Source: Pseudoselenomonas ruminantium
GTDB taxonomy: Bacteria > Bacillota > Negativicutes > Selenomonadales > Selenomonadaceae
Length of the DNA: 64,000 bases
Reading direction: 5' to 3'
NCBI RefSeq assembly: GCF_900142515.1
Contig: NZ_FRBC01000015.1
Span: forward strand, 1 to 64,000
The notes beneath the pieces were generated by a model. The model searched no databases. It saw nothing but the letters and a program-made list of their open reading frames with translations, and was not told the DNA's origin. Positions 30,157 to 54,707 of this stretch are shown piece by piece. Each line of letters opens with the position of its first letter. The first letter of the stretch is position 1. The position numbers were made by a program, and so were the translations under genes.

Positions 30157-30828
30157 CTAAGCCGTCTGTCTGACCTTTTCTTCCATTCCCACCAGTTCCT
30201 TGGCAATGCGGGCGGCTTCAGCCGCATTCACCGCATAGGCATCGGCTTTTATTTTCTTGGCAAAGCCTGGCGAGATGGGACCGCCGCCAATGACCACCTT
30301 GTAGTTTTCCCGTAGATGCATTTCTTCCAGCAGGTCAATGACCTCCTTCATGGCCGGCATGGCTGTGGTCATCAGGGTGGACAGGGCAATGATCTCGGCC
30401 TCATGCTCTTTGGCTGCCTGCAGGAAGGCCTGGGGCTTGATATCCCGCCCCAGGTCGATAACCTCAAAACCGGCGCTTTCCAGCATGATCTTCACGAGGT
30501 TCTTGCCGATATCATGGGTATCCCCTTCCACCACGCCAATGACCACCACATGTCTTTCGCTGTTTTCCTGACGGACAATATGGGGTTTCAGGATATCGAT
30601 GCCCGCATACATGGCATCGGAACAGAGCAGCAGTTCCGGGATGAAATATTCCTCCTGCTCATAAAGCTCCCCCACCTTGTCCATGCCCCGGGAAAGGCCA
30701 TCTTCGATGGCCGCATAGGCATCGTAACCCTCTGCTACCACCTGGCGGGCCAGTTCTGCCGCCCGGTCTTCATCCATGTCCACCACAGCCTCATAGAGTC
30801 CCTGGTGCAGTTCCTGCTCAGTTGCCAT
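30157..30828 (-). CDS. Corrinoid-binding protein (MtaC/MtmC-like), copy 1
   Basis: The 223-residue methyltransferase-associated corrinoid protein has an N-terminal helical cap (about 1-85) and a Rossmann B12 domain. DTHDIG (103-108) supplies the lower-ligand His105. ALSTLMTTAMPAMKEVIDLL and IGGGPISPGFAKKI follow. It shuttles methyl groups on cobalt between methyltransferases. It overlaps the preceding gene by 11 bases. The start at 30828 has GAGGAGG upstream. A second, different corrinoid protein is encoded at 35201-35851. Confidence 0.92.
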   Translation of the reverse strand: MATEQELHQGLYEAVVDMDEDRAAELARQVVAEGYDAYAAIEDGLSRGMDKVGELYEQEEYFIPELLLCSDAMYAGIDILKPHIVRQENSERHVVVIGVVEGDTHDIGKNLVKIMLESAGFEVIDLGRDIKPQAFLQAAKEHEAEIIALSTLMTTAMPAMKEVIDLLEEMHLRENYKVVIGGGPISPGFAKKIKADAYAVNAAEAARIAKELVGMEEKVRQTA

Positions 30829-31729
30829 AATTTCTTTCCTCCTCATCAGCCAGTGATTCCCTAAGCTGTAATTGATACACGCCCCCATTGCAAAGAGGAC
30901 TGTAAGACCGCTGCACGCAGCCATGCCCCCAAAAACGCCCGCGGGACTTATGGATAGTTTCCAGCAAGGCTTCTCCATAAGTCAGCTGCAGCACATCAAA
31001 TGCTATCTTATCCGAGGTACAAAAGCCGGCTTTTTCAAAGCCCACCGAAGTGACATTGCAAAGATGTATGGCTACCCTTTGCGTGGCCGCCTCCATTTCC
31101 TTCAGCACTTCCCAGGAGATCCTGCCGCAGATCTGTTGGTAAATCTGCGGCGAGACCAGACTGCTGGCCACCGTGGGGTCCGCATAGGAAAGCAGGCTTA
31201 CCCCATGGTCTTCTGCCTCCTGGGCATAACGGGCCAGCTCCTTGCCAATCCGGGCGCATATCTGATGGAGCTTTCCGGGCTGCCGGTAAAGCCCCTTGTA
31301 TATTTCCTTGGCCGAAATCAGTTGACCTAAAACGGTAAAGGGGCCTTCGATATTCAACATGATATTTTCTCCCCGGGCCTGCAAAATGGCAGCCGCCCGC
31401 AAGACCTCCGCCAGCCGCCCCTGGGAAAAATCCAAATGAGGCAATTCCTCAATATCTGCCAGCCGCTCATAACGGAAACGGGTAACCGCCGGCACGCCGT
31501 ACAGAGAATTAAGGGATACCTCCGCCCCCAGGGCCTCGGCCTCGATGGTTACACAGAAGGGCAGCTTCACCCAGACATCGCGGTTCAGACGCTTGACTTC
31601 CAAGGCCGCCCGCACCATATCCTCCGCTTTGCTGAACACCGAGGTATATCTTGCTCCGGCATTGCGGCAGAGGTCTTCAGTGATGGGGCGTTCCGGCTCT
31701 CCCAGGCAGGGAAAATCCTCCTCTCTCAT
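30818..31729 (-). CDS. UroD-type corrinoid methyltransferase, divergent copy 2
   Basis: The 303-residue UroD-fold protein is the most divergent of the three in this operon. It keeps HLC in VAIHLCNVTS and a distal Cys in GHGCVQRSY for possible zinc binding. FCVTIEAEALGAEV and LNIEGPFTVLGQLIS match the family. It is shorter at the N-terminus than its paralogues. The start at 31729 has GGAGGAG upstream. Its role (acceptor methyltransferase or accessory) cannot be read from sequence. Confidence 0.78.
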   Translation of the reverse strand: MREEDFPCLGEPERPITEDLCRNAGARYTSVFSKAEDMVRAALEVKRLNRDVWVKLPFCVTIEAEALGAEVSLNSLYGVPAVTRFRYERLADIEELPHLDFSQGRLAEVLRAAAILQARGENIMLNIEGPFTVLGQLISAKEIYKGLYRQPGKLHQICARIGKELARYAQEAEDHGVSLLSYADPTVASSLVSPQIYQQICGRISWEVLKEMEAATQRVAIHLCNVTSVGFEKAGFCTSDKIAFDVLQLTYGEALLETIHKSRGRFWGHGCVQRSYSPLCNGGVYQLQLRESLADEEERNYGN

Positions 31730-31761
31730 AGGCTCCTCCTTTCCCGTCAATCGGATTTCCC

Positions 31762-33687
31762 CTATGTCAGATGGGGGAAACTATCCTTGGCATGGGGAAT
31801 GGCCAGCGCTTCCATGAAACGCGTCTGGAAGTCCGGCTCCACCGCCGTTTCCACAAATTCCACCTGCCTTGCGACACTGGCCGCCTCCCGGCGCTTGTCG
31901 ATATCCAACAGGGCAATGCGGGCACCATCCCCGGCGGCATTGCCCACGGCCTTGACGTTATCCAGGTCACAGTCGGGAAACAGTCCCAAGGTCAGGGCAC
32001 TCTGCTTGTTGATATAACTGCCAAAAGCCCCGGCCAGGATGACTTCTTCCACCTGCTCAATGCCGTATTTTTCCATCAGGTATTTCGCCCCCGTATAGAT
32101 GGCTCCTTTGGCCAGCTGCACGGCCCGGATATCTCCCTGCTTGATGGTGATATCCTTATGGATGGCGGTTTCCTCCGCCCAGGCCAGCACATATTCCAGA
32201 CGGCCATTCTCATCCTTGCGCACCCGGGGCGTTTCCAGCCTGCCGTTGATACGGCCGGCCTTGGAAATGATGCCCGCCGTATAGAGGGCCGCCACCACAT
32301 CGATGATGCCGGAACCGCAGATGCCTTGGGCACCGGTGAATTTCAATTCAGGATACCAGGTCTCCTGTCCGATTACCTTATAGCGGGGTTCCTTGGTCTC
32401 CGCGTCTATCTCCACCCGCTCGATGGCGCCGGCTGCCGCCCGCATGCCAAAGGCAATCTGAGCGCCTTCCAGCGCCGGGCCGGTGGCACAGGAGGTGGAT
32501 AACAGCCTGTCCTTATTGCCCAAATCAATCTCGCCATTGGTACCAATGTCGATGATGAGTTTTACCTTGTCGCTCTTATATGGTTCCTCAGCCAGCAGCA
32601 CCGCCACATTGTCCGGCCCTACAAAGCCCGCTTCCACCGGCAGAGAATGGATATTGGCCGCAGGATTGATAGCAATTCCCAAATCCCTGGCCTTGATATC
32701 CAAAGGCTCACTGACCGTCGGTACAAAGGGCGAACGCCCCATGAACTTCGGCTCCAGCCCCAAAGTGAAATGGTGCATGGCCGTATTGTAAACCAGCACC
32801 ATTTCATCCACCTCCAGGGGCTTGCGGCCAATCTTCGCCGTCATCTCCGCAGCCAGTTCGCTGATAGCCTTCAGCATGACCTGCTGCAGCTTGTCCCGGC
32901 CATCCTCATTGCTCATGGCATAGGATATGCGGGCCAGCACGTCTTCCCCATAGCCGATTTCCGGATTCATGCGGGAGGCCCGCCCCAGAAGCTCCCCTGT
33001 GGTCAGATCACAGAGGAATGCCGCCAGCGTAGTGGTGCCAATGTCAATAGCGATGCCCAGACTCGGGGCGGCTTCTCTGCCCGGCACCACCCGGATTACT
33101 TCCTGCTCCTGCCAGACCGTGACCGTAACTTGCCAGTCCTGCTGGCGCAAAATCTGCGGCAAATCGCGGAGTACGGTATAGTCAACGGTCAGATTCTCCA
33201 GTCCGTAGACCTGCGCCAGTGCATCCAACAGGCGCTGCCTGTCATCCCGGGCATCGTCCAGCGCAGCAGGCTCGATGGTCAGGCTGTACTGCTTCACCGC
33301 CGGATTGAGGCTGTAAGCACGCGTCTTCCCCTGTTCCAAGATCACCTGCTTGGCCGTGCGGCTTTCTTCGGGCACCGTCACCACCAAATCCGCATTAACC
33401 TGGGCCAGGCAGGCCAGCCGGTAGCCCCGCTCCAGCTCCTCCCGGCTGAAGAATTTTTCTTCCACCGGCGAAAGCGCTGACACATGGCCCCGGCTGGATG
33501 CAATGCCCAGTTTCTCAAAACGGCCTTCTTCCACGATAACCCGGCATTTGCCGCAGACACCTTTGCCGCCACAGACGGCTTCAATGCCCACCCCCAGCTC
33601 CTGGGCTGCCGCCAGCAGGGTTGTCCCTGCCAGCGTTCTGCCCCGCCTGCCGGAGGGTTGGAATACAATCTCTACGGTATCCGCCAC
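31762..33687 (-). CDS. Reductive activator of corrinoid proteins (RACE/RamA-like ASKHA protein)
   Basis: Reactivates corrinoid proteins whose cobalt has oxidised to Co(II), using ATP and electrons. The 641-residue protein has an N-terminal plant-type 2Fe-2S domain with Cys39, Cys45, Cys48 and Cys94 (CGGKGVCGKC ... RLACLAQV). A middle domain and a C-terminal ASKHA ATPase domain (GIAIDIGTTTLAAFLCDL, IDIGTNGEIDLG, CGSGIIDVVAALY, GAFGSYINKQSAL) follow. The start is GTG at 33687 with GGAGGGG upstream. It sits between the MtmB-like methyltransferase and a UroD protein. Confidence 0.92.
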   Translation of the reverse strand: MADTVEIVFQPSGRRGRTLAGTTLLAAAQELGVGIEAVCGGKGVCGKCRVIVEEGRFEKLGIASSRGHVSALSPVEEKFFSREELERGYRLACLAQVNADLVVTVPEESRTAKQVILEQGKTRAYSLNPAVKQYSLTIEPAALDDARDDRQRLLDALAQVYGLENLTVDYTVLRDLPQILRQQDWQVTVTVWQEQEVIRVVPGREAAPSLGIAIDIGTTTLAAFLCDLTTGELLGRASRMNPEIGYGEDVLARISYAMSNEDGRDKLQQVMLKAISELAAEMTAKIGRKPLEVDEMVLVYNTAMHHFTLGLEPKFMGRSPFVPTVSEPLDIKARDLGIAINPAANIHSLPVEAGFVGPDNVAVLLAEEPYKSDKVKLIIDIGTNGEIDLGNKDRLLSTSCATGPALEGAQIAFGMRAAAGAIERVEIDAETKEPRYKVIGQETWYPELKFTGAQGICGSGIIDVVAALYTAGIISKAGRINGRLETPRVRKDENGRLEYVLAWAEETAIHKDITIKQGDIRAVQLAKGAIYTGAKYLMEKYGIEQVEEVILAGAFGSYINKQSALTLGLFPDCDLDNVKAVGNAAGDGARIALLDIDKRREAASVARQVEFVETAVEPDFQTRFMEALAIPHAKDSFPHLT

Positions 33688-33714
33688 ATCATCCCCTCCT
33701 TTCCACAGGCTTGC

Positions 33715-35127
33715 TTATTGGATGGGCAGGCCCATTTCACGCAGCTCGGCCTTTACCTTGTTGTAGATGGCCAGATATTCCGGCTTGGGCTGTACGGTCT
33801 TCAAATCGTAAGCCGTGCGGAAGTCCCCGCCCACGGTATGCAGGGTGCGGTTGTCAATCAGCGGCTGATACTTGGGCAGGATACGGTTGACCAGTTCATT
33901 GGCCTGTACACGCGTCAGCCGCGCTTTGCCCACAGCCTTGCCCACTTCGGCGGCAAATCTTGCGCCTAAGCCGCCAGCCTGGTCGAGGCCTGCACTCTGA
34001 TGCCCCGTGCCACCAGCCACCAAGAAGCCCAATGTCGCACTGCCAATAGCTCCGGCTGCCGTCTCCCAGAAGTATTCCTCACTGTTGATGCCTGCCGTCA
34101 TCTGCCAGGCGGCACCGACCAATGCCGGGAAGTGGGTGTGCTTGCTGAAAGCCGCCCCGCCGTAGTTGGCCACATAGAGGGCGTACTTGCTGGAGTTGCT
34201 GAAATAGAGCGCATCGGTCGGCCAAGTGCCCAGAAGCGTCGGCTCGTAGAGCATCACATAAGCCAGGAGGTCGGCCACGCCATTTACGGCTGAAGTTGCC
34301 GGGCCGCCGGCGGCACCGCCGATATAAGCCTGCAAGATGCCCCAAATGTTGGCGCCATAGGAATGCCAGAAATAAGCGCGGCTCATCTGGTCATAGTCCG
34401 TCTTGAGCTGAGGCATGATGTAGACATGGCGCACATCGCCCTTCTTCACGCCCCAAAGGGGATTGGCTGCTGCCATTTCCGCCTGGAGATTCACTGGCGT
34501 GGAGCCGCCATCGGGAAGTCCCGGACGGCCCACCCGCCGTTTTATATCATTGACGACTGCCACATGCTGCTGTTCAGCCATCATTTCAAAGGGAGAACCC
34601 GGTTTGATGGGTATCCCGTTGATTTCCGTCTTCACGCCCTGGAAATGCACATAATCCACCAAAGGTTCCTGTGCATAGGACAGGGCAATCTTCTCATAAA
34701 GGTCATCGGAAATCGGTCCTAAGATGCGGCCCATAGTGCCCACCGGGGTTGGCCCGTTGTCGTAATCCTCAAAGCCCCGGTGCGGAATGGTTATCGCGTC
34801 CTGCCCTTCCCCTAAGGTCACGCTGCGGGGCAGGTTTTCCAAAGCCGCGTCGATTTCCTCTTCGGTAAAGAGAATGCGCCGTTCCGTGGATACATTCAGG
34901 ATACCCACGTCCAAGAGCAGTTCCTTGCCGGCCTGCCAGATGGCATCCAGCTCGTCATCGTCCGTAGGAACCACTTTGCCTTCAGCGTACTCAATGCCGT
35001 ATTTCTTGGTGAGTTCTTTCAGTCTCGGCCAATATACTTTCGTGTCAAATTCCTTCTGGAAGGTGATGGGGCCAGTCTCACCGCGCCCCCAATACTCGAT
35101 GAATTTACCTTTTGAACCATGGCTCAT
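33715..35127 (-). CDS. MtmB-family methyltransferase without pyrrolysine
   Basis: The 470-residue homologue of archaeal monomethylamine:corrinoid methyltransferase MtmB resembles it at both ends. VVPTDDDELDAIWQAGKELLLDVGI is like the N-terminal third of MtmB, and PEYLAIYNKVKAELREMGL is like its C-terminus. MtmB places pyrrolysine (UAG codon) at its active site. By my alignment from memory the equivalent residue here is about Trp225 in NPLWG, and the frame has no internal stop. The substrate is therefore probably not monomethylamine. It is followed by the activase and preceded by a corrinoid protein. The start at 35127 has GGAGGAA upstream. Confidence 0.82.
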   Translation of the reverse strand: MSHGSKGKFIEYWGRGETGPITFQKEFDTKVYWPRLKELTKKYGIEYAEGKVVPTDDDELDAIWQAGKELLLDVGILNVSTERRILFTEEEIDAALENLPRSVTLGEGQDAITIPHRGFEDYDNGPTPVGTMGRILGPISDDLYEKIALSYAQEPLVDYVHFQGVKTEINGIPIKPGSPFEMMAEQQHVAVVNDIKRRVGRPGLPDGGSTPVNLQAEMAAANPLWGVKKGDVRHVYIMPQLKTDYDQMSRAYFWHSYGANIWGILQAYIGGAAGGPATSAVNGVADLLAYVMLYEPTLLGTWPTDALYFSNSSKYALYVANYGGAAFSKHTHFPALVGAAWQMTAGINSEEYFWETAAGAIGSATLGFLVAGGTGHQSAGLDQAGGLGARFAAEVGKAVGKARLTRVQANELVNRILPKYQPLIDNRTLHTVGGDFRTAYDLKTVQPKPEYLAIYNKVKAELREMGLPIQ

Positions 35128-35200
35128 AGTCATTTCCTCCGTTCCCCAAAACACTGGTGCTTATGCACTCTTATCTAAATCACGGATCTTGCTTTCAGCT

Positions 35201-35851
35201 TCAGGCTACATGCAGCAACCGCTTAGCTAAGTTTACAGTGGCGATGGCATCCTGACCGTAGCCGTCAGCGGCTATCTGGTCCGCCCATTCCTGGGTGACT
35301 ACGCCGCCGCCCACCAGCACGATGAACTGGTCACGCACGCCCTTGGCCTCCAAAAAGTCTATCAGGTCCTTCTGCACCGGACGGGTGGTTGACATCAGCG
35401 ATGCCGCCGCAATTACCTTGGCCCCCAGACGCTTGGCCTCTTCGAGGAAGCGGGACGGCGCCACATCCACCCCCAGATCGTAGACCTCGAAACCAGCCGT
35501 AGCCAAGAAGGTTGCCACCATGTCCTTGCCCACCTGATGGATATCCCCCTGCACCGTACCGATAACAATGGGAATGGCCTTCTTGCCTTCGGTGTTCTTC
35601 TTCTTGATTTCCGGCTCCAGTACGCTCAGGGCATTCTTGAAGGCATCGGATGCCAGCATGATTTCCGGCAGGAATACCTCCATGCGTTCAAACTTCACGC
35701 CCAATTCATTGAGACCGTCCGCCAGCACTCCCACCGCTTCCACGGGATCAATGCCCTGTGCCAGCGATTCCTTGGCCAGCTCCAGCGCCGCATCTTCATC
35801 AAAGTCCAATATGGACTGCTTCAGTTCGCTTAAAATATCCTTGTCTGCCAT
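35201..35851 (-). CDS. Corrinoid-binding protein (MtmC-like), copy 2
   Basis: The 216-residue partner of the MtmB-like enzyme has a helical cap (LSELKQSILDFDEDAALELAKESL), then the B12 domain with DIHQVG (103-108; His105 is the expected cobalt ligand). AAASLMSTTRPVQKDLIDFL and LVGGGVVTQEWA follow. It lies just before the MtmB-like gene, the usual order for corrinoid methyltransferase systems. I chose ATG 35851 for its spacing from GAGAGGGA. Confidence 0.92.
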   Translation of the reverse strand: MADKDILSELKQSILDFDEDAALELAKESLAQGIDPVEAVGVLADGLNELGVKFERMEVFLPEIMLASDAFKNALSVLEPEIKKKNTEGKKAIPIVIGTVQGDIHQVGKDMVATFLATAGFEVYDLGVDVAPSRFLEEAKRLGAKVIAAASLMSTTRPVQKDLIDFLEAKGVRDQFIVLVGGGVVTQEWADQIAADGYGQDAIATVNLAKRLLHVA

Positions 35852-35881
35852 TTTCATTCCCTCTCTTTCCCAAACACGAAA

Positions 35882-36907
35882 TTACAGATCCAATTCGGCG
35901 GCTGCTTTGGTCAGCTCCAGCAGATTTTCCAGCGGCGTATCCGGGGCGATGGCGCAATCGGGCGAAATGGCATCCACACCAGCCGCCACGGACTGCTGTA
36001 CCGCCTCGCGCACATCTTCCCGGCTGCCTTCCAGCAACACATCGATGGGGTGAACCGCTCCCAGGATGGGAGTCGTTATCCCTGCCTGCCGGAACTCTTC
36101 CTTCGCCGCCGGAATATCTACCGCCGATTCCACACTGATGGCCGCAGCACCGGTGGCCGCCACATCTTTCATCACCTGATCCAGCTTGCCGCAGATATGA
36201 ATGATGACCGGCACCCTGCCGCCGATGAAATCAATCAGCTGCTTTTCATAGGGAGCCGCCATGGCCCGATAAGTCTTCGGGCTGATCATATCCAGCGAGG
36301 CCATCATGTCTTCGATGACAATGGCATCCGCACCGGCATCGATTATGGCCTGGGCATACTGTTCCGCAGTCTTTTCCGCTGCCTCGAAATAAGGCACCAG
36401 CTGTTCAGGCTTGCGGAGGCTGGCCTTCAGCAAAGCGGATACGCCGATGATATTGGCGGCCACGCTGAAGGGCCCCACCAGACTGCCCATCACCAGGGTT
36501 TCTGCCCCCACCGTCTGCTTGAGCCGCCGGATCGCATCCAGCACTGCTGGTATGCGACCTTTGGCCGTAAAGTTTTCCGGTATCCGGGGCTCCTCCCCTA
36601 GAGAAAAGGCCGGCTTTGCTATGCTGGGCAGATGGATTCGCCCGCCGTCCTTGATGGCAGAGCCATAGATTTCGGCTTCCACCGTTTGACAGTAAGGTAC
36701 CCGCACCGCATCCAAATGGAGAATCTCGGCGCCCCCGGCCGAAAGCCTGGCCATCTTCTCCCCGTCATAATGCGCCTCCGGCCAGTACGCGCCGGTCTTT
36801 TCCATCAGGCCATAGGTGACATACTGACAGACGCTCAGGACAGGTATCCTGTCCACCTCCTTTCCGGACAACAGCGCCGTCAGCCGTTCTTTACCAGTCA
36901 TTCCCAT
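35882..36907 (-). CDS. UroD-type corrinoid methyltransferase (MtaA/MtbA family), copy 3
   Basis: The 341-residue first gene of the corrinoid operon carries HIC in VIIHICGKLDQVMKD and the distal Cys in ISPDCAIAPDTPLENL. These make the zinc motif that activates a thiol in methylcobamide:CoM methyltransferases. PYCQTVEAEIYGS and MGSLVGPFSVAANI fit the family. The thiol acceptor is unknown; homocysteine is an attractive guess given the setting. The start at 36907 follows AGGGGGA by six bases. Control module B lies directly upstream. Confidence 0.86.
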   Translation of the reverse strand: MGMTGKERLTALLSGKEVDRIPVLSVCQYVTYGLMEKTGAYWPEAHYDGEKMARLSAGGAEILHLDAVRVPYCQTVEAEIYGSAIKDGGRIHLPSIAKPAFSLGEEPRIPENFTAKGRIPAVLDAIRRLKQTVGAETLVMGSLVGPFSVAANIIGVSALLKASLRKPEQLVPYFEAAEKTAEQYAQAIIDAGADAIVIEDMMASLDMISPKTYRAMAAPYEKQLIDFIGGRVPVIIHICGKLDQVMKDVAATGAAAISVESAVDIPAAKEEFRQAGITTPILGAVHPIDVLLEGSREDVREAVQQSVAAGVDAISPDCAIAPDTPLENLLELTKAAAELDL

Positions 36908-36931
36908 TAGCATTCCCCCTAACCTAAAACA

Positions 36932-37015
36932 CAAAAAAGAGGTTTTGCGCAGGACTATCCTGCACAAAACCTCTGGTTATCCAGTCAGTTTGCTCGCCTT
37001 TTTGGCGTTGGGTTA
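36932..37015 (-). terminator. Control module B: conserved leader and attenuator-like terminator
   Basis: The leader contains CGCC-AAAAA-GGCG, the invariant AACTGACTGG and CTGG-ATAA-CCAG. The terminator stem AGAGGTTTTG.GCAGG/CCTGC.CAAAACCTCT (36938-36974) is followed by six T on the minus strand. The first hairpin differs in sequence from modules A and D yet still pairs, which suggests selection on structure. The terminator ends about 15 bases before the ribosome-binding site of the corrinoid operon. Confidence 0.82.
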
Positions 37016-39732: not shown

Positions 39733-39809
39733 GAAAAGAGGTTTTGCCCAGAAAAATTCTCAGCAAAACCTCTGGTCTTCCAGTCAGTTTCTTTTTTGAC
39801 GTTGGGTTA
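39733..39809 (-). terminator. Control module C: conserved leader and attenuator-like terminator
   Basis: The leader has the invariant AACTGACTGG, then CTGG-AAGA-CCAG and the terminator stem AGAGGTTTTGC/GCAAAACCTCT (39737-39747 and 39763-39773) followed by TTTT. The first small hairpin is weaker here than in the other modules. Confidence 0.8.
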
Positions 39810-46204: not shown

Positions 46205-46328
46205 AGAATCCTGCCAAGGAACGAAAGTAACCTTGGCGCAGGCCAAAAAGCAAGCACCTGCGCCACTACGCACTAATCAAGGAAAAAATCCTCGCCGACT
46301 CCAAACGAGCCAAACAAGGATTTTTCTA
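46205..46328 (-). terminator. Terminator region of the nitrogenase-like operon
   Basis: The first hairpin after the K-like stop codon pairs AAAAATCCT with AGGATTTTTT (46282-46326, with inner pairing), giving a T-run on both strands. A second hairpin with arms CCTGC-CAAGG/CCTTG-GCAGG lies at about 46212-46243. Nothing coding is seen in this stretch. Confidence 0.65.
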
Positions 46329-46331: not shown

Positions 46332-47699
46332 TTATGCAGATTTGCTGATAGCCGTAGTAAATATCTTTTCCAACAGCGTCAGCGCACCGCGATAGCCAAT
46401 ATAGGTTTTGTTGAGCACCACGTCATAGGAAACCGGGTAGCTGACTTCCACGATATGGCCGTTCAGCTCCTTGACCACGTCACGTTCCCAGCTGGTACCA
46501 AAGATGACCGGCGGCTTATGGCCGTAGTCTTCTTTTTTCAGCAATTCGCCAACGATATAGCCGTCTTCCACAAATTCCACCTCGGCGGACACGTCATCAG
46601 CCAGATGCTTGTACTCCTCCCGGATGGCTTCCCGGTATTTTTCTGGCGTATGGTCGGTGATGAACTGCTTGACCGGGATAAGGCCCAGCTGATTGACCAC
46701 GAACTTGTTGACGGCCAGATTATAGGCCGCATCACTGACCACGGAATAGGTCGCCGGCAGGCCCCACCAGTATTCAGCATAGAAGTCGGTGAAGTGTTCC
46801 AGATAATAGTAGTATTCCTTTTCCTCCTGTTTGATGAACTTTTCCGTCTGTACTTCGTTCTCCTTGGCAAAGGAAGCAATGGCTCGCAGGAATTCAGCCA
46901 CCTGCTTGGCACCGATGGGCAGCACTGGCAGGTGTAGATAAGGCTGGCCGTACTTTCTTTCCAACAGCTTGGCCGTCTTGACACCCAGCCAGGGCCCCAC
47001 CACCAAATTGAACTCGGCATTGGGAATGGTCAGCCATTCCTTGACGCCTTTGGAACCATAGCCAAAGAGGATGTTTACCTCCCAACCGGCCCCTTCCAAG
47101 ATGCGTTTGAGTTCCGTCAAATCGCCCCGCCAAAAGGTATTCTGGAAGGGCAGTTCCGACCAGACATTGATCAGCCCCTTCTTTTTCGTGTCTTTATCCT
47201 TGGCATACTTATCCACATACTGCTCGATAATGGCCTCGGTGACAATCTCGTGGCCCGTGAAGTTATTGCCCTTGAAGCCGCCGGTTTCCGCCGACACGAT
47301 GGGCACACCCTGCTCCTGATAGCGGGCCACCACGGCGCCGATATCGTCACCGACGATTTCGGGGATACAGCCGTTAAGCACCACGAACAAATCCCCATCC
47401 ATGATTTTGAGAGATGCAGCAATGAGTTCATCCAGATGCCGCGCTCCGCCAAAGACCACATCTTTTTCCTGCAGGTTTGAGCTGGGCGGTACGGCACCGC
47501 CGGAATAGCCGCCCCCCTGATAGCCATTGTAGAACACCAAGCTGGTATACTGCTTGTCCACGCAGCCGGGGCCGCAGTGGGTGATGGGGATGGCGCCGGG
47601 AATGGCGCTGACGGAATGGAGTGCCCCCAAGGCGCAGCCATAGCGCACCTGATTGATGGAATTGGTCTGACCGTTCTGGTCCTTCTTGATTTTAGGCAT
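46332..47699 (-). CDS. Nitrogenase-like component, K (beta) subunit, MarK-like
   Basis: The 455-residue NifK-type protein has P-cluster-type cysteines at Cys22 (YGCALGALHS), Cys46 or Cys42 (HCGPGCVDKQ) and Cys111 (LNGCIPEIVGDDIG). The N-terminus of true NifK is absent. It ends a B-H-D-K gene order and its start overlaps the D-like stop by eight bases, so the two subunits are co-translated. That order and its cysteine/methionine gene neighbours match methylthio-alkane reductase (MarBHDK), not nitrogen fixation. Other nitrogenase-like groups remain possible. Confidence 0.8.
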   Translation of the reverse strand: MPKIKKDQNGQTNSINQVRYGCALGALHSVSAIPGAIPITHCGPGCVDKQYTSLVFYNGYQGGGYSGGAVPPSSNLQEKDVVFGGARHLDELIAASLKIMDGDLFVVLNGCIPEIVGDDIGAVVARYQEQGVPIVSAETGGFKGNNFTGHEIVTEAIIEQYVDKYAKDKDTKKKGLINVWSELPFQNTFWRGDLTELKRILEGAGWEVNILFGYGSKGVKEWLTIPNAEFNLVVGPWLGVKTAKLLERKYGQPYLHLPVLPIGAKQVAEFLRAIASFAKENEVQTEKFIKQEEKEYYYYLEHFTDFYAEYWWGLPATYSVVSDAAYNLAVNKFVVNQLGLIPVKQFITDHTPEKYREAIREEYKHLADDVSAEVEFVEDGYIVGELLKKEDYGHKPPVIFGTSWERDVVKELNGHIVEVSYPVSYDVVLNKTYIGYRGALTLLEKIFTTAISKSA

Positions 47700-49278
47700 G
47701 GGCAGCCTCCTTTCTTTCCTGCTCGGCATGGAATTCATCAGCGTCAAATTTTGCCAGTTCCGGGTGCTTGGCCAGGATATAGGCATCCTTCTGCTCCAGC
47801 CACCACTTCTTATAGGGCAGTTTGACATGCCGCTTGATATCGTCATGGAATTTCTTGTGGGCCAGGATTTCCAAAATGGTCTCGCCCAGATTCACAATGC
47901 CGTCATAGCCCACGGCGATGTGCTCATCCCCCAAGGGCGCTGCCGGAATTCCCAGGCGGGCTGCCAATGGTGCCAGACCGTTATGGCGGATCAGCAGGAA
48001 GTCGGGCTTATTCTCCTGCAGGAAGGCGTACAGCTGATACTGCTGGCGATTGGACACATGGAAGTTCTTTACCTGGCCATAATGCTTGTTCAGATGACCT
48101 AAGGAATCTTCCCGGGAATCGCCGCTGTCGTAAACCGGATCGTGATGGAAGGTCAGCGAACCATCCACCTCCACTTCCAGTTCCCGCAGGACCTGAATCA
48201 GGCCATGGGCATAAGCCGAACCTGTGGCCACGAAACCCTTGACGCCTTTGAGTTTTTTCTTGAGTTCCTCAATCTTCGGTTTGACCCTTGCGTGTTCCCT
48301 GGCAATGAAGTCCTCCACCAGATGTTCCCGATGGGTAACCTTGGCGATTTCCCGCAGCCAGGCGTCCGTACCAGCAAAACCATAGGGCATAGGAGCCTTG
48401 ACTTCGGGCACGCCGAAATGCTGTTCCAATGCCGCCGCCATATAGGAGGACAGGGTGTAGCAGAAGCCCACAGTGGCTGCCGCTTCGGACATCTGGGCCA
48501 GTTCCTCCACCGACGCCAGGTCCACCACATAATTTACCCGCAGGTTCAGATTAGCCAGCATAGGCGTGAACACATCGGAACCCCAGAGATTGATGACATT
48601 GACCAAATCCTCCTGTTTCTTCGTCGGGTTCTTGCGCACGATCTGCCGCAGGATTCCATGCTGAGTGGCATCAAAGCCCGTGCTCCAATGCTTGGAGCGG
48701 AAGCCTTCGCAGGCCAGGGGAATCACGGGGATGCCCAGCTCTGCTTCCTTCTCGTCCGTAATGCTTTCGATATCCTCACCGATAATGCCGGTGGCGCAGG
48801 AGGAAGCCACAAAGATGGCCTGGGGCTGATAGCGTTCCCAAGCATCGTCAATGGACTGGCGCAGCTTGTCGGCGGCACCGAACACCATATCGCTTTCCAC
48901 CAGGTTCGTGTTGATGATGCGGATGTTTTCTGCCTTGAAACCGCGCATGACCAGACCATTGCGGTAAATGTTGTTATAGGGAACCTGACCGCCGCCGCAA
49001 CCAATGGGCGCATGCTGAATGAGCACTGCATCCCGCACATTGCCGGCCTGGCATTCTACCATCTGCTCACTGCAGACAGATCCCTGGGTAAAGGGGCCCT
49101 GCAATTCACAGAGACGGCAGTTGCCGCCGCAGCCCGTGCCCCGTTCCCGCTGGCCGCGCAGTTCGTAGCTGGACTCTTTATGCAGTTCCTCCGTGGTGCC
49201 GTCCCAGGCGATGATGGTTCCCAGACGCTGTTCGCGCTGCTCCACGGAGGGAATATCCAGATTGATTTTCTTTGGCAT
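47692..49278 (-). CDS. Nitrogenase-like component, D (alpha) subunit, MarD-like
   Basis: The 528-residue NifD-type protein has Cys76 (ECQAGNVRDAVLIQHAPIGC) and Cys94 as P-cluster-type ligands and Cys161 in ASSCATGIIGEDIESI. Cys273 in VGFCYTLSS aligns with the cofactor ligand Cys275 of NifD. The NifD cofactor His lies directly before GYDG; here that position is Val456 (HIAVGYDG), with a His three residues earlier. Extra cysteines at 50, 54, 57 and 69 are unusual. The start has GGAGGGAG upstream. I infer a reductase using a NifB-type cofactor. Confidence 0.8.
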   Translation of the reverse strand: MPKKINLDIPSVEQREQRLGTIIAWDGTTEELHKESSYELRGQRERGTGCGGNCRLCELQGPFTQGSVCSEQMVECQAGNVRDAVLIQHAPIGCGGGQVPYNNIYRNGLVMRGFKAENIRIINTNLVESDMVFGAADKLRQSIDDAWERYQPQAIFVASSCATGIIGEDIESITDEKEAELGIPVIPLACEGFRSKHWSTGFDATQHGILRQIVRKNPTKKQEDLVNVINLWGSDVFTPMLANLNLRVNYVVDLASVEELAQMSEAAATVGFCYTLSSYMAAALEQHFGVPEVKAPMPYGFAGTDAWLREIAKVTHREHLVEDFIAREHARVKPKIEELKKKLKGVKGFVATGSAYAHGLIQVLRELEVEVDGSLTFHHDPVYDSGDSREDSLGHLNKHYGQVKNFHVSNRQQYQLYAFLQENKPDFLLIRHNGLAPLAARLGIPAAPLGDEHIAVGYDGIVNLGETILEILAHKKFHDDIKRHVKLPYKKWWLEQKDAYILAKHPELAKFDADEFHAEQERKEAAHA

Positions 49279-49293
49279 AAGCTCTCCCTCCTG

Positions 49294-50166
<873 letters not shown>

Positions 50167-50183
50167 CTAACACTTTTTATATA

Positions 50184-51047
50184 TCAACCGTGGGAAAAAG
50201 TTTCCTTCGCCTGCAGGAGCCCCTTGTAAACTTCCTGACTGAAGTTATTTTTCCCCGGGATACCAACCGCATCTGCCCGGCAGTGCTGGCAGTGGCGGAA
50301 CACATCGATATGTTTGCCCGCTTCTTTCCGGGCCACCGCCAGATCCACGCAGCTGGGAGCCTCGCAATCCTTGAGGTCATGCTGGGGAATCAGCGGGATG
50401 ATGTTGTAGATCGTCGCCCCTGCTTCCTTGACCGCTTTGGCAATGGCGCCAATATGGAAGCGGTTGATCTCATTGACCAGCACCGTATTGACCTTGACCA
50501 CCACACCGGCGGCCGCCACCTTGCGGATGCCCTCCAACTGATTTTTTATGATAATCGCTCCGGCTTCCTCACCGGTATAGCGCTTGCCATGATAGATAAG
50601 TCCGTTGATCATCCTGGCCTCAATGGCCGGATCTACGGCATTCACCGTTACCGTCAGGGTATCGATGCCCACATCGATTACCTCCTGGGCCCGCTCATTC
50701 AGCAGCAGGCCATTGGTGCTCATGCACTTCAATAATTGCGGGAACTTATTGCCGATAAAGCGGAAGGTCTGCAGAGCTCTGTCCGAAGCCAAGGTATCTC
50801 CCGGCCCGGCAATGCCCACCACGCTGAGTTCCGGGCAGAACTTCAGCGCCCGCTCCACATAACTTACCGCCTCTTCCGGCTGGATGACCGCTGAGGTCAC
50901 CCCCGGCCGATTTTCCACATCGTTGATTTTCCGGTCACAGAACCGGCACTCCAGATTACACCCGGGGCATACCGGCAAATGGATACGCCCCCTGTTCTGC
51001 TTTGCTCCAAAGCACGGGTGGAGCTCCCGGACACGCTGTTCGTCCAT
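50184..51047 (-). CDS. NifB-like radical SAM cofactor maturase (MarB-like)
   Basis: The 287-residue NifB core carries HPCFGAKQNRGRIHLPVCPGCNLECRFCDRK, with the radical SAM cysteines, then GIAGPGDTL, STNGLLLNE and the C-terminal CQHCRADAVG cluster ligands. It lacks a fused NifX domain, which is encoded separately just upstream. It should build the Fe8S9C precursor. No nifE or nifN is present nearby, so the enzyme may use this precursor directly. I chose ATG 51047 after AAAGGGG. Confidence 0.88.
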   Translation of the reverse strand: MDEQRVRELHPCFGAKQNRGRIHLPVCPGCNLECRFCDRKINDVENRPGVTSAVIQPEEAVSYVERALKFCPELSVVGIAGPGDTLASDRALQTFRFIGNKFPQLLKCMSTNGLLLNERAQEVIDVGIDTLTVTVNAVDPAIEARMINGLIYHGKRYTGEEAGAIIIKNQLEGIRKVAAAGVVVKVNTVLVNEINRFHIGAIAKAVKEAGATIYNIIPLIPQHDLKDCEAPSCVDLAVARKEAGKHIDVFRHCQHCRADAVGIPGKNNFSQEVYKGLLQAKETFSHG

Positions 51048-51080
51048 TGGTATGGCCCCTTTCTCTCCTAACACAGTCCA

Positions 51081-51443
51081 TCAGTAAGCAACACTTGCCC
51101 GGCGCTTATTCACCTCATAGGTATGGATTTTCGGCAGCGCCGCTGCCACCGTTTCCCCTTCAATCTCCAAGGGCAGGATATCCTGCCGCTCCAAAGCCTT
51201 CTGTGCGCCCGGGCCAATGGCCTCGGCCACCACATAACGGCAGTCGGACAAAGCCTGCACCGCCGCCAGCATGGCACCTTCATCATGATAGCCGTGCTGG
51301 CAGGGCGATTTAGCCTGCCGCCGTTCCACTTCCGCAAAAGTGCCGTCATCAGCCACTTCCACGATCACAAAGCCATCGGCGGCGCCGAAATGACGGTCAA
51401 TATGGATGCCGTCACTGGAGGCTGCCGCAATCCGATATGCCAT
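51081..51443 (-). CDS. NifX/NifB-C-like cofactor carrier protein
   Basis: The 120-residue dinitrogenase iron-molybdenum cofactor-binding family protein has IAAASSDGIHIDRHFGAADGFVIVEV, CQHGYHDEGAML and VVAEAIGPGAQKALERQDI. The family holds FeS cofactor precursors during assembly. It precedes nifB by about 33 bases, and AGGAG precedes the ATG. It probably serves cofactor delivery to the D-K protein. Confidence 0.87.
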   Translation of the reverse strand: MAYRIAAASSDGIHIDRHFGAADGFVIVEVADDGTFAEVERRQAKSPCQHGYHDEGAMLAAVQALSDCRYVVAEAIGPGAQKALERQDILPLEIEGETVAAALPKIHTYEVNKRRASVAY

Positions 51444-51453
51444 AGAATCACTC

Positions 51454-52365
51454 CTAATCCAAAATATGTTTGCTGAAATACCGCTCTGCCCGGTCGATGA
51501 CCGCCAGGACGATATTGCCTTTAACCCCGGAATGGGCCAGTTTCAGCGCTGTGGCAAAGGCGGCACCGCTGGAAGAACCGGCAAAAATCCCCTCTTTTGC
51601 CGCCAGCTGCCTTACACCAGCAAACGCTTCTTCATCTTTAATCTTATAGACCTGATCGATAAACGATGTATCCATCGTCTGGGCAATAAAATCATTGCCA
51701 ATGCCTTCAATCTCATAATCACCATGCTCCCCGCCGCCGATAATCGAGCCATAGGGGTCGGCAAGTACCCCCTGAATGGCGGCATTCTGTTCTTTCAAGT
51801 AACGCATAATCCCCGAAAAGGTGCCGCCGCTGCCCGCACCAGAAACGAAATAATCAATCTGCCCATCCAAATCCGCATAAATCTCTGGTCCGGTGGTTTC
51901 GTAATGGGCCTGCGGATTGGCAGGATTCTCAAACTGCTTCAGCGTGATGGCCCCGGGAATCTTCTGACGCAAATCCTCCGCTTTGGCCGCCGCCTCCAGC
52001 ATCCCCCCAGCCCGGGGCGTATGCACCAGTTCCGCCCCCAAAGATTTCATCAGCGTCTGCTTCTCCGCCGAAAATTTCTCCGGCACCACGAAGATGATCC
52101 GATACCCTTTATTCAGCGCAGCATAGGCTATCCCCAGTCCTGTGTTGCCTGCCGTAGCTTCGATTATGGTGCCGCCGGGCTGCAGCTGACCGCTTTGTTC
52201 TGCCGCCGCAATCATCTGACGGCCCACACGGTCCTTGGCACTGCCGCCGGGGTTCCATAACTCCAGCTTGGCAAAGAGCCGGACGCCCTCCGGCAAATCG
52301 AAATGTGTCAGCTCAACGAGCGGCGTATGCCCGATGAGCTCCTGCATGGATTTATAATAGTGCAT
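51454..52365 (-). CDS. Cysteine synthase-fold PLP enzyme (MccA / CysK-like)
   Basis: The 303-residue fold-type II PLP enzyme has the PLP lysine in GGSAKDRVG and the substrate loop EATAGNTGLG (here T-A-G-N-T). GAGSGGTFSG binds the phosphate and SGAAFA follows. It is paired with a cystathionine gamma-lyase-like gene as in the Bacillus mccAB operon, so it may make cystathionine from homocysteine and O-acetylserine. Ordinary cysteine synthase is the alternative. The start is ATG 52365 (MHYYKSMQELIG). Confidence 0.83.
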   Translation of the reverse strand: MHYYKSMQELIGHTPLVELTHFDLPEGVRLFAKLELWNPGGSAKDRVGRQMIAAAEQSGQLQPGGTIIEATAGNTGLGIAYAALNKGYRIIFVVPEKFSAEKQTLMKSLGAELVHTPRAGGMLEAAAKAEDLRQKIPGAITLKQFENPANPQAHYETTGPEIYADLDGQIDYFVSGAGSGGTFSGIMRYLKEQNAAIQGVLADPYGSIIGGGEHGDYEIEGIGNDFIAQTMDTSFIDQVYKIKDEEAFAGVRQLAAKEGIFAGSSSGAAFATALKLAHSGVKGNIVLAVIDRAERYFSKHILD

Positions 52366-52387
52366 GTTCTTCGCTCCCTTTTCGTTG

Positions 52388-53542
52388 TTAAATGCGGCTG
52401 GCCTCAATGGCCTGCTTGATATCTGCCAGCAGATCTGCCTTGTCCTCAATGCCCACCGACAGGCGGATGAGGTTATCCGTTATGCCGATTTTCTCCCGCG
52501 TTTCCTTGGGAATGGCCGCGTGCGTCATGGTTGCCGGATGGCAGACGAGACTTTCCACGCCCCCCAGGCTTTCCGCCAGGGATATCAGCTGCAAGGACTT
52601 GAAGAACTTGCGGATATCGTGATTGGCTGTCAGCTCGAAGGATATCATGGCGCCGCCGTTCTTTGCCTGCTGCTGGTTGATTTCGTAGCCGATATGGCTC
52701 GTAAGTCCCGGATAGTAGATTTTCTCCACTTCCAGATTGCCTGCCAACCAGTCGGCCAGATACTCGGCATTTTCTACATGCCGGTCCAGGCGCACCGCCA
52801 AGGTCTTGATACCTCTGATCAGCAGGAAGGCATCCTGCGGGCCGAGCACCCCGCCGATGGAATTCTGTACAAAGGCTAACTTCTCGGCCAAATCCTTGGT
52901 CTTGACCACGACCAGGCCAGCCACCAGGTCGCTATGGCCGCCCAGGTACTTCGTGGCACTATGGATGACCACATCTGCACCCAGAGCCAATGGCTGCTGC
53001 AGGTACGGCGTCATAAAGGTGTTATCGACAAGCACCAGTGCTCCATGGCGATGGGCGATTTCCGCCACAGCCCGGATATCGGTGATAGTCAGCAAAGGAT
53101 TAGCCGGGCTTTCAATGATGATGGCCTTGACATTCGGCGTGAACTGTTTCTCCAAATTCTCCAGATCCGTGGTATCCTCCAGCGCATAGGTCAGATTGAA
53201 ACGGCTGAACACCTTGTCGAGCACCCGGAAAGTACCGCCGTAGACATTGCTGGACAGGAGTACCTTGACATTGCTCTGGAAAAGGCTCAGCACCGCTGTG
53301 ATGGCCGCCATGCCCGAGGCAAAGGCAAAGCCCGCTTCGCCGCCTTCCAGCTCGGCAATCAATTTTTCAAGTGCCGCCCGGGTGGGATTTCCCGTCCGGG
53401 CATACTCCCAGGTTCCCTCCCGCAATTCTCCCAGCCCATCCTGCTTGAAGGTCGATGTCTGGTAAATCGGCACATTCACAGCGCCGGTTTTCGTATCCCC
53501 ATCAATGCCGCCATGAATCAATTTCGTCGTAAATTTGCACAT
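52388..53542 (-). CDS. Cystathionine gamma-lyase/synthase-type PLP enzyme (MccB-like)
   Basis: The 384-residue Cys/Met PLP-family enzyme opens with TKLIHGGIDGDTKTGAVNVPIYQTSTF. It has the active-site Tyr/Arg region WEYARTGNPTRAALEKLIAELE, the PLP lysine in HSATKYLGGHSDLVAG and LSVGIEDKADLLADI. Next to the MccA-like gene it probably completes methionine-to-cysteine conversion by cleaving cystathionine. It differs clearly from the paralogue at 23895-25088. Confidence 0.87.
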   Translation of the reverse strand: MCKFTTKLIHGGIDGDTKTGAVNVPIYQTSTFKQDGLGELREGTWEYARTGNPTRAALEKLIAELEGGEAGFAFASGMAAITAVLSLFQSNVKVLLSSNVYGGTFRVLDKVFSRFNLTYALEDTTDLENLEKQFTPNVKAIIIESPANPLLTITDIRAVAEIAHRHGALVLVDNTFMTPYLQQPLALGADVVIHSATKYLGGHSDLVAGLVVVKTKDLAEKLAFVQNSIGGVLGPQDAFLLIRGIKTLAVRLDRHVENAEYLADWLAGNLEVEKIYYPGLTSHIGYEINQQQAKNGGAMISFELTANHDIRKFFKSLQLISLAESLGGVESLVCHPATMTHAAIPKETREKIGITDNLIRLSVGIEDKADLLADIKQAIEASRI

Positions 53543-53568
53543 AGTATCATCTTCTTCCCTTGTTTATC

Positions 53569-54477
53569 TCAATACTGCTTCTTCTCCGCCAAGATAAAAT
53601 GCACGTTTTCCATAGCCTGCTGATGGTCCGTGCGCTCATCGAAGAAATGCCGCTGAATGTCTGCCGGGGACTCATGATTGCGAATCACAAAACCTTCCCG
53701 GGAAAGGATTTCCCTCATCTCTGCCAACGAGAAACCATGCCGCATCGGCTCACCCAGCTGCTCAGTGATTTCCGCCAGTCGCCGCACCCGGGAATTGGAA
53801 TCCGGTTCGAAAGTGGATTCATCCGGGAAATCCAACACGAACTGGCTGCCCGGCGACGCCAAAGAACTCACGCTGCGCACGAATTCCTGAAAGGCCTCCG
53901 GTGTCAGATAATAGGACACACCGAGCAGCGAGAAGAACGATGGCTCATAAGTCTGAAAACCGCTGTGCAGCAGGACTTTCCCCAGGTTGTCGCGTTCAAA
54001 ATCAATCGCCGCATAATGGGTATTTGCAGGAATCTCCCAGCGAAGTTCATGAATCCGCCGCAGTTTGTATGCCTGCGTATCCGGATGATCCAGCTCGAAG
54101 ATCTGCACGGCTTCATCCGTATTGCGGAAAGCGAAGGTATCCATCCCCGCCCCGCAGATTACATACTGGCAGCTGGCACGATTCCGGGCAAAACGGTACA
54201 AAGCCCGCTCCGCAAAGGCAATCCGCGACAGGGCAATGGGCGAGAAATAATGATCCATCTCTTCAAAGACCAACAAGCTCTCAAAACCATAACGGGGCAA
54301 TTGCCCGGCCGCTTCCGCCTGTCCGCGGAGCAAGCCGCCGATTTCGTCATACGCATCCTTGCCGATGATGTCATAGGCCAGATAGTCATCGAAAATCTTG
54401 TTCTTCCCCAGCATGGAATGATAAGCCCGGGCAAAGGAGCACAGTTTCGCAGTCATACTTTCCTGAGCGGCAATCAT
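53569..54477 (-). CDS. SAM-dependent methyltransferase of the leucine carboxyl methyltransferase (LCM) family
   Basis: The 302-residue class I methyltransferase has the SAM loop YVICGAGMDTFAFR, the acidic FELDHPDTQAYK, SLLGVSYYLTPEAFQEFV and FVLDFPDES. LCM-family enzymes methylate carboxyl or hydroxyl groups; the substrate is unknown. It is the first full gene of the operon leading to mccB, mccA and the nitrogenase-like set. In Bacillus the mccAB operon also starts with a methyltransferase gene (yrrT). AGGAGG precedes the ATG, 15 bases after a Cys-rich small frame. Confidence 0.82.
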   Translation of the reverse strand: MIAAQESMTAKLCSFARAYHSMLGKNKIFDDYLAYDIIGKDAYDEIGGLLRGQAEAAGQLPRYGFESLLVFEEMDHYFSPIALSRIAFAERALYRFARNRASCQYVICGAGMDTFAFRNTDEAVQIFELDHPDTQAYKLRRIHELRWEIPANTHYAAIDFERDNLGKVLLHSGFQTYEPSFFSLLGVSYYLTPEAFQEFVRSVSSLASPGSQFVLDFPDESTFEPDSNSRVRRLAEITEQLGEPMRHGFSLAEMREILSREGFVIRNHESPADIQRHFFDERTDHQQAMENVHFILAEKKQY

Positions 54478-54492: not shown

Positions 54493-54555
54493 TTAAATCC
54501 ACATTCGTTCATGTTTCAAAAGAATCTTGCCAATATTACAACAATCACATTTCAT
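54493..54555 (-). CDS. Putative Cys-rich leader peptide (20 residues)
   Basis: The small frame MKCDCCNIGKILLKHERMWI lies between the module D terminator and the methyltransferase start. It has three Cys codons within four positions (TGT GAT TGT TGT). AAAGGA lies about 11 bases upstream. Its stop is 15 bases before the methyltransferase ATG, so translation could be coupled or stalled when Cys-tRNA is scarce. Poly-Cys upstream peptides regulate sulfur operons in mycobacteria. Evidence is sequence only. Confidence 0.5.
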   Translation of the reverse strand: MKCDCCNIGKILLKHERMWI

Positions 54556-54584
54556 AATCGCTACAGTCCTTTCATCACAAATAC

Positions 54585-54668
54585 AAAAAGAGGTTCTGCG
54601 CAGGGATTTACCCTTGCACAGAACCTCTGGTTATCCAGTCAGTTCATTCGTCTTTCAACGATGACCTT
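54585..54668 (-). terminator. Control module D: conserved leader and attenuator-like terminator
   Basis: The leader has the hairpin TCGT-TGAAAG-ACGA, the invariant AACTGACTGG and CTGG-ATAA-CCAG. The terminator stem AGAGGTTCTGCGCAGGG/CCCTTGCACAGAACCTCT (54589-54628) is followed by five T. The stem carries a compensating change relative to modules A-C (TTCTG/CAGAA instead of TTTTG/CAAAA), which supports selection on pairing. Confidence 0.83.
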
Positions 54669-54707
54669 ATGTTACACCATTACACCTATCATGTCAATAG
54701 GCATAAT
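54669..54707 (-). promoter_or_regulatory. Control module D: promoter and operator of the mcc/nitrogenase-like operon
   Basis: On the minus strand TTGACA (54692-54697) and TAACAT (54669-54674) have a 17-base spacer. The palindrome ATTACACCTAT-7-ATAGGCATAAT (54679-54707) is the longest of the set, with 9 of 11 positions paired. Confidence 0.85.

Follow-up and report, generated by a model that had tools for sequence, protein, structure and literature searches.

In a stretch of 64,000 nucleotides from Pseudoselenomonas ruminantium (contig NZ_FRBC01000015.1, positions 1 to 64,000; hereafter the window), we analyzed an eight-gene operon that, by its sequence, is a methylthio-alkane reductase (MAR) operon in a rumen Selenomonas and a variant of such operons in its reductase type and cysteine branch. 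We put a probability of roughly 0.8 on the reading that it encodes an anaerobic sulfur-scavenging pathway built on this enzyme. The genes occupy 46332-54477, all on the minus strand, with intergenic gaps of 6-32 nt and an overlap of marD and marK (Table 1). An earlier note on this DNA had listed these eight genes with their order and coordinates, which family models and reading frames bore out; its description of the operon as fused did not hold, as the genes are separate members of one operon. The start of marK most likely lies at 47699, with a Shine-Dalgarno sequence 5' of it, rather than at the longest-frame start, 47846. The genome measures 3.1 Mb and is 99.98% complete, and its MarD is 100% identical to a protein of Selenomonas ruminantium S137. 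The order LCM-MccB-MccA-NifX-MarB-H-D-K was intact in all 10 named Selenomonas loci spanning the whole operon (L035-L044), with MccA in two frames in L036.

MarD and MarK as a candidate methylthio-alkane reductase

The D protein matched the solved MAR of Rhodospirillum rubrum with 837 bits and its next relatives, nitrogenases, with 123; for the K protein, the corresponding values were 671 and 65. A tree of 80 D-type proteins placed the window D, R. rubrum 9FMG and 40 more Mar rows on one side of a branch with a Shimodaira-Hasegawa-like approximate likelihood ratio test (SH-aLRT) support of 100, and the Nif and Vnf references fell outside it; this was a quick tree with long branches flagged, built from 40 of the 83 Mar rows and 38 of the 41 others, whose labels were set beforehand from BLAST bits. 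An unlabelled row with 48% identity to the window D (L076) also fell inside the Mar branch. The earlier note had proposed a candidate MAR and named the phylogeny of D and K as one place where this could fail; D did not group with nitrogenases.

The accessible part of the R. rubrum study (PMC12552129) gives MarD Cys66/91/158 and MarK Cys32/56/121 as the P-cluster ligands, MarD Cys270 and His429 as holding the [Fe8S9C] cluster, and Arg428 (a hallmark, in Loop I), Trp195, His194, His375, Phe199, Cys73 and Gln74 as surrounding that cluster. All 12 of these MarD residues are kept in the window D, where the cluster ligands are Cys273 and His432 and the site is formed by Arg431, Trp198, His197, His378, Phe202, Cys76 and Gln77; the six P-cluster cysteines, whose retention had been claimed before, are present in the alignment as D Cys69/94/161 and K Cys22/46/111. 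Among the 83 Mar-type rows, each of the 12 residues is found in 80-83 (81 for both Arg428 and Cys73; the first residue has three gaps), and only the three P-cluster cysteines among them are invariant in the 41 other rows. Two peculiarities that had been reported for D can be read in this light. A valine does stand where NifD has a histidine before GYDG (AVGYDG starts at D455), but no ligand has been lost, because the MAR ligand, R. rubrum His429 and here His432, sits on a different loop. Similarly, Cys50, Cys54 and Cys57 precede Cys69 as described, but Cys69 is not an extra cysteine, since it corresponds to the P-cluster ligand Cys66, and R. rubrum MarD is likewise cysteine-rich in the region matching D 50-69.

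A search of the genome with PF00148 returned D and K only, with neither NifE/NifN nor a second NifDK; the earlier claim that nifE and nifN are lacking nearby thus extends to the whole genome, nifV not being part of this search. The nitrogenase and tetrapyrrole reductase identities were rejected, and an isethionate reductase is judged improbable. For the Mo, V and Fe nitrogenases, D lies outside the NifDK clade and the genome encodes no NifEN. For the tetrapyrrole reductases, the DPOR and CfbD models scored far below their cut-offs on the window proteins, the D tree being one without sequences of this group. For isethionate reductase, the comparison turned on MarB, which is NifB-like, the D tree containing no IsrD. 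With the best solved relatives, the place in the Mar clade, 12 of 12 residues and no other PF00148 protein, the proposal of a candidate MAR is supported.

The accompanying Fe protein

The best match of the H protein was NifH of Clostridium pasteurianum (1cp2, 492 bits); R. rubrum MarH (9fmg_D) followed with 272 bits, as the last of 23 structures matching at E<=1e-60. H passes the nifH equivalog model and, beside its cluster cysteines (Table 1), carries the P-loop GKGGIG. In a 67-row H tree, the window H was split from 26 MarH-type rows by the longest internal branch, with a support of 100; this quick tree left out the rows of 8 Selenomonas loci and those longer than 330 aa, and it flags long branches for Rhizobium NifH, L089 and L125. 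Thus, neither the matches nor the tree placed the window H in the R. rubrum MarH clade. The genome holds only this one Fe-protein match at E<=1e-50. The earlier note had equated the gene order with that of R. rubrum marBHDK; the order B-H-D-K agrees, but H is a nitrogenase-type Fe protein rather than an R. rubrum-type MarH.

An H gene was located no more than 3 kb from marD in 42 of 80 mar loci; it is of the R. rubrum type in 26 and of the NifH type in 16 (12 Selenomonas, Propionispira and three of the Clostridium group). Two kinds of Fe protein therefore accompany MarDK, and R. rubrum-type MarH was not counted as defining MAR, because 16 of the 42 loci are without it. Mar-clade genes with R. 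rubrum-type MarH were also noted in archaeal records of Methanoplasma (L095, L097, L110, L112, L114).

Cofactor and sulfur-metabolism genes

MarB carries the motifs HPCF, NRPGVT, AGPGD, TVTVNA, CPGCNLECRFC and CQHCRADAVG, and scored 261 bits against the nifB model TIGR01290, whose cut-off of 344 was set for the longer fused form. The NifX-like protein, a possible cluster carrier, fell below the cut-off of the nifX model TIGR02663. The LCM-family S-adenosylmethionine (SAM) methyltransferase found only a weak match among solved structures. The best models were PRK07671 for MccB (553.9 bits, cut-off 594) and cysKM for MccA (328.5 bits, cut-off 344). Relatives of both lie on the same strand upstream of marDK, within about 2.5 kb, in eight further loci from Pectinatus (L048, L049, L058), Clostridium (L053, L059, L060) and Geobacter/Desulfuromonadales (L065, L104); elsewhere in the locus, they were found in L076, L079, L086, L098 and L114, the last two, including the Methanoplasma locus L114, having them on the other strand.

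Elsewhere in the genome, MetY scored 636 bits (cut-off 495) and is followed by a PALP (CysK-type) gene. The mtnA gene (419 bits, over its cut-off) adjoins a class II aldolase gene, and mtnA with a class II aldolase forms the start of a known route to methylthio-ethanol. We infer that the class II aldolase by mtnA belongs to such a supply route.

The leader of the operon

A sigma-70-type promoter overlapping a dyad, an attenuator and a cysteine-rich leader open reading frame (ORF) precede the operon. The promoter score is unremarkable, with 6 promoter-like sites in the region against 5.5 expected. The dyad has 6 sites at <=3 mismatches in the window against 0.93 expected, and none of 100 shuffles reached 6. 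One copy stands without an attenuator before mnmA, at 43474-43490. The presence of the dyad before mnmA and the sulfur operons suggests a shared repressor, which we take to be perhaps of the Rrf2 type.

In the attenuator, a CUGAC-stem-loop-GAGG antiterminator hairpin lies over the 5' arm of an intrinsic terminator; its core, 5'-NNNC-UGA-CNNN-loop-NNNG-AG-GNNN-3', shares that arm. The copy before the mar operon, which is in the training sets of both of our models, scored 134 bits with model R1 and 55.9 bits with model R2. A scan without any stem requirement found 63 distinct sites in 1.87 Mb, compared with 2 in reversed sequence. For a pairing test, these were reduced to 50 by an 85% identity cut, in a set that includes pattern-fetched loci and near relatives. 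The inner stem pairs form in 47, 47 and 48 of the 50 sites, against 39.6, 35.6 and 37.1 with shuffled partners, and outer pairs 1-3 form in 42, 38 and 33, against 26.5, 25.9 and 19.9. Several pair types occur in the inner stem and in outer pairs 1-3; outer pairs 4-6 showed no excess over shuffled partners in the 50 sites.

In all 12 leaders inspected (the window and 11 loci, several near-identical), a short ORF has 2-4 cysteines in its first six codons; in the background, at least two occur there at 1.25% of ATGs. In L039 and L041, this ORF has no stop before the first gene. The principle of a cysteine-codon leader is already known, since such an ORF has been described before cysS in the accessible part of PMC8632094.

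Attenuator copies in the window and in other genomes

Model R1 found eight sites in this genome, four strong ones in the window (119-134 bits) and four weaker ones: before MetY-CysK (38 bits; 29.6 bits with R2), before an AprA-, CysD- and CysN-like operon, over the start of a DUF2292 gene, and an unassigned one at C33. In the sister genome G014, the island also includes CysP, CysT, CysW, AprA-like, CysD and CysN. Besides the mar operon, three units in the window lie behind strong copies (Table 1). The mlp cluster has several UroD-type methyltransferases, corrinoid proteins and a reductive activator, as do type 1 clusters; the longest frame of its first gene overlaps the attenuator, and its MtmB homolog (PF05369, 479 aa) has no amber pyrrolysine codon, because the frame has no stop. 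The amidohydrolase operon would perhaps take up and cleave an acylated sulfur amino acid, its MetQ-, MetN- and MetI-like proteins scoring below specific cut-offs. An esterase (PF00756) and an ATP-grasp-like protein, at 37739-39766, also follow an attenuator; the longest frames run over 39766-37739, and the true start of the esterase must lie past the attenuator. We know of no sulfur role for this pair.

Table 1. Features of the window discussed in the text
Feature	Position	Strand	Evidence or remark
Sigma-70-type promoter TTGACA-N17-TAACAT overlapping dyad CCTATTGACATGATAGG	54669..54701	-	
Attenuator of the mar operon, CUGAC-stem-loop-GAGG hairpin over 5' arm of intrinsic terminator	54581..54649	-	
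Cysteine-rich leader ORF MKCDCCNIGKILLKHERMWI	54493..54555	-	
LCM/TIGR00027-family SAM methyltransferase	53569..54477	-	PF04072; TIGR00027 over cut-off
MccB-like cystathionine gamma-lyase family protein	52388..53542	-	PF01053 over cut-off
MccA-like cystathionine beta-synthase/CysK family protein	51454..52365	-	PF00291 over cut-off
NifX-like protein	51081..51443	-	PF02579, 67 bits, over cut-off
MarB, NifB-like radical SAM protein without NifX domain	50184..51074	-	NifB 7jma, 284 bits
Fe protein, NifH type, Cys99 and Cys134	49294..50151	-	TIGR01287, 467 bits (cut-off 394); tree
MarD	47692..49278	-	PF00148; 9fmg_A, 837 bits; 12/12 named residues; tree
MarK	46332..47699	-	PF00148; 9d9u_C, 671 bits; Cys22/46/111
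Terminator-like hairpin 3' of marK	46291..46309	-	position is the sole argument; 8 such sites in region, 8.7 expected by chance
Attenuator before esterase and ATP-grasp-like pair	39733..39794	-	R1 119 bits, in training set
Attenuator before mlp cluster	36934..36995	-	R1 120 bits, in training set
Type 1 mlp cluster: three MtaA-like proteins, two corrinoid proteins, RACo, MtmB homolog	29124..36967	-	
Attenuator before amidohydrolase operon	28980..29044	-	R1 126 bits, in training set
Amidohydrolase, MetQ-, MetN- and MetI-like proteins, Cys/Met pyridoxal phosphate (PLP) enzyme, small Fe-S protein	23085..28894	-	

Among the 80 mar loci, a protein-based selection, 30 (8 of them Selenomonas) contain attenuator sites, 44 in all, of which 42 lie in the direction of marD; controls gave 5 sites in reversed sequence and 1-4 in each of ten dinucleotide shuffles. 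The attenuator directly precedes marD in heliobacteria (L063, L078), marH in Clostridium (L059, L060) and marB in L105. Over 249 genomes of the phylum, R2 found 40 sites in 17 genomes, mostly before sulfur genes, the model having been trained on 27 sites, some of them from four of the 17 positive genomes (G000, G004, G378, G571). Outside the genus there were 29 sites, of which 23 came with loci and were inspected. Ten precede sulfur genes, assigned by family or sequence: CysH, Sat twice (in L282 by likeness to L265), CysK, MetK (two sites, one gene), TauE, MarD (by sequence) and two more PF00148 genes. Four precede components of methionine-, sulfonate- or similar-type transporters of unsettled specificity (L260, L262, L268, L274), three precede PF03601/chromate-type transporters (by Pfam in L266 and L270, by eye in L273), and six precede nothing clear or sigma-like genes; the matches before sigma-like genes (L269 and, by eye, L271) look like chance.

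Independently of R2, a pattern search found cysH in three genomes (PF01507) and a RACo-like gene in G086 (by eye). Searched for by itself in 398 genomes, the core pattern turned up at 25 sites in 14 of them. Three Selenomonas genomes account for 10 of these sites; the reversed control had 15 matches, as many as the remaining sites, so that outside the genus the bare pattern is weak and the claim for the attenuator relies on the terminator test and model R2.

Rfam 15 gave no family at gathering score on the attenuator and no riboswitch in the window. The sole Rfam match overlapping an attenuator copy was sok in L206, at 23.9 bits (E 0.15), where the gathering score is 59. PyrR, RAT and ANTAR sites were also compared with the attenuator. 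A literature search returned no description of the CUGAC/GAGG attenuator among the matches listed. LoaP was rejected as its antiterminator, the target being a UNCG hairpin, unlike the attenuator, in the accessible part of PMC12691694. An attenuator before a sulfonate ABC operon, a premature terminator common to that operon and another gene, is described in the accessible part of Naville and Gautheret 2010 (PMC2965389) and may be the same element. The CUGAC/GAGG attenuator offers an entry to a wider and apparently unnamed sulfur attenuator system.

Association with DUF2292

Of 17 genomes positive for the element by R2, 15 have DUF2292, compared with 26 of 232 negative ones (presumably the same 249 genomes); the one-sided Fisher probability is 1.6e-11 in a test that ignores relatedness and the R2 training genomes. 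Without the four training genomes, it was present in 11 of 13 element-positive genomes. The two element-positive genomes without it are those of the sigma-like R2 matches. The DUF2292 gene lies at most about 20-30 nt from the element before cysH, Sat and cysK (G571, G401, G533). It occurs in 10 of the 80 mar loci; in L057, for example, it separates the element from marD, and in L046 it separates marH from marD. In or beside mar operons, it was located at 13111-13428 in L038, 15108-15425 in L039, 9480-9851 in L046, 9651-9818 in L057 and 7507-7656 in L105; the proteins of L038, L039 and L046 contain two repeats each. At the family level, 25 of 26 R1-positive and 33 of 95 R1-negative genomes have DUF2292, so that it is wider than the R1 element; in G302, the element is present and DUF2292 is absent.

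Two DUF2292 structures had a mean predicted local distance difference test (pLDDT) score of 56 and 72 and no PDB match at E<=0.001, and we therefore make no claim about the fold. One literature search gave no DUF2292 function among the matches listed. DUF2292 and the element could both simply follow sulfur metabolism; alternatively, DUF2292 is hypothesized to bind the element RNA. It is a tentative proposal, with the odds somewhat against it, that CUGAC/GAGG marks an unnamed sulfur-responsive antitermination system of Bacillota, covering sulfate, methionine, mlp and nitrogenase-like genes including MAR, with DUF2292/YezD as its RNA-binding trans factor and a MAR branch that pairs a Mar component with a NifH-type Fe protein in a nitrogenase-free cell.

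Proposed pathway and alternative explanations

The sequence itself shows that the enzyme belongs with MAR, which residues are kept, the type of reductase, the operon, the pairing within the attenuator and the fact that sulfur genes share it; we infer the substrate and activity of the enzyme, the flow to cysteine, the sensing of sulfur and the role of the leader ORF as follows. MarB would make the [Fe8S9C] cluster, which the NifX-like protein probably carries and MarDK would hold through Cys273 and His432, beside the P-cluster. The nitrogenase-type Fe protein would drive ATP-dependent electrons into MarDK, which would reduce R-S-CH3 to methanethiol and a hydrocarbon; MetY would fix methanethiol into methionine, and MccA and MccB would turn homocysteine into cysteine. 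Transcription from the sigma-70 promoter would have to pass the intrinsic terminator, with which the CUGAC/GAGG hairpin would compete, probably passing RNA polymerase under sulfur starvation, and the leader ORF would probably add a cysteine check.

Several observations weigh against this picture. A marD match is absent from 10 of 22 same-genus genomes (6 of the 15 of good quality). Three loci (L042-L044, from Selenomonas ruminis, ND2010 and WCT3) have the operon with its leader ORF but no promoter-attenuator module in front. The leader ORF is located 3' of the terminator and thus cannot alone control it; in this operon, its target would be translation or read-through past the terminator. MccB and MccA fall under every NCBIfam cut-off among the matches listed, so that cysteine formation rests on family and operon context. 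Finally, the accessible part of PMC12552129 assayed MarDK with R. rubrum MarH, and a test of MarDK with NifH was not encountered there.

With regard to the enzyme, we regard it as improbable that the Mar scaffold here carries a C-S (or C-Se) reductase acting mainly on a substrate other than a methylthio-alkane, such as a sulfonate (isethionate) or a methyl-selenide. Group IV relatives do differ in substrate, IsrBHDK using isethionate (PMC11423573, accessible part), and the mlp cluster has the same leader as the mar operon, most type 1 mlp clusters having been linked to selenium by the authors of PMC10418091 in its accessible part. Nevertheless, the window D retains every active-site residue of MAR and matches R. 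rubrum MarD best among solved structures, and MarB has the NifB motifs, whereas IsrB is reported to be NifB-like in the radical SAM motif only. Far less credible still is a minimal group IV nitrogenase fixing N2. The Fe protein of the operon passes the nifH model, and Endomicrobium reportedly fixes N2 with a group IV enzyme. The same has been predicted for Heliophilum (PMC9147875, accessible part), but the window D is in the Mar clade with Arg431/His432 in place of the nitrogenase site, the genome is without NifEN, and R. rubrum MarDK gave no 15N2 reduction (PMC12552129, accessible part).

We also doubt that the leader, instead of being a separate regulatory RNA, is an ordinary terminator or belongs to a known riboswitch platform. 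In G604, three core sites (L207, L215, L219) lie downstream of cobalamin riboswitches with no obvious sulfur gene, the three cysH cases have a SAM riboswitch about 225-330 nt upstream, L199 and L201 having a DUF2292 ORF in the intervening stretch, and outside the genus the bare pattern occurs as often as its reversed control. However, Rfam gave no riboswitch in the window, and the inner stem, which the scan did not require, and the first three outer pairs exceed shuffled partners.

Comparison with known systems and significance

The methyltransferase and cysteine genes recall the yrrT-mtnN-mccA-mccB operon of Bacillus subtilis, in which a SAM methyltransferase, MccA and MccB lead from methionine to cysteine; unlike that operon, the present one has no mtnN and holds the MAR genes in the same unit. 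With R. rubrum MarBHDK (9FMG/9D9U; PMC12552129, accessible part), it shares the kinship of MarD and MarK, the P-cluster and [Fe8S9C] ligands, a NifB-like MarB and the order B-H-D-K, but it differs in the NifH-type reductase, the additional MccB, MccA, NifX and LCM methyltransferase, and the attenuator in front. MarDK in Firmicutes is not new, since heliobacteria had been assigned it earlier (PMC9147875, accessible part). Heliobacterial MarDK belongs to the same Firmicute Mar clade and has the attenuator before marD in L063 and L078, but the MarH of L063, at 51% to the window H, is of the R. rubrum type, and no MccB-MccA pair adjoins marD. Kountz and Balskus, in the accessible part of PMC10418091, noted that type 1 mlp clusters can contain or neighbor MarHDK-like genes, and these clusters share UroD-type Mlps, corrinoid proteins and a RACo activator with the one in the window; the associated genes are called group IV-A there, whereas here they fall in the MarDK clade and share a leader. 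As far as it was accessible, the main text of that paper makes no mention of Selenomonas, a riboswitch or a terminator.

Because H passes the nifH model although this genome encodes no nitrogenase, nifH surveys of the rumen or gut could miscall it and count such a cell as a nitrogen fixer. The natural pairing of MarDK with a NifH-type protein offers a direct test of the determinants of reductase specificity in the nitrogenase family. The attenuator gives access to the switching of sulfur assimilation in various Bacillota, and DUF2292 gains a testable role. If the MAR is active, this rumen bacterium would be a non-methanogen source of methane, ethylene or ethane.

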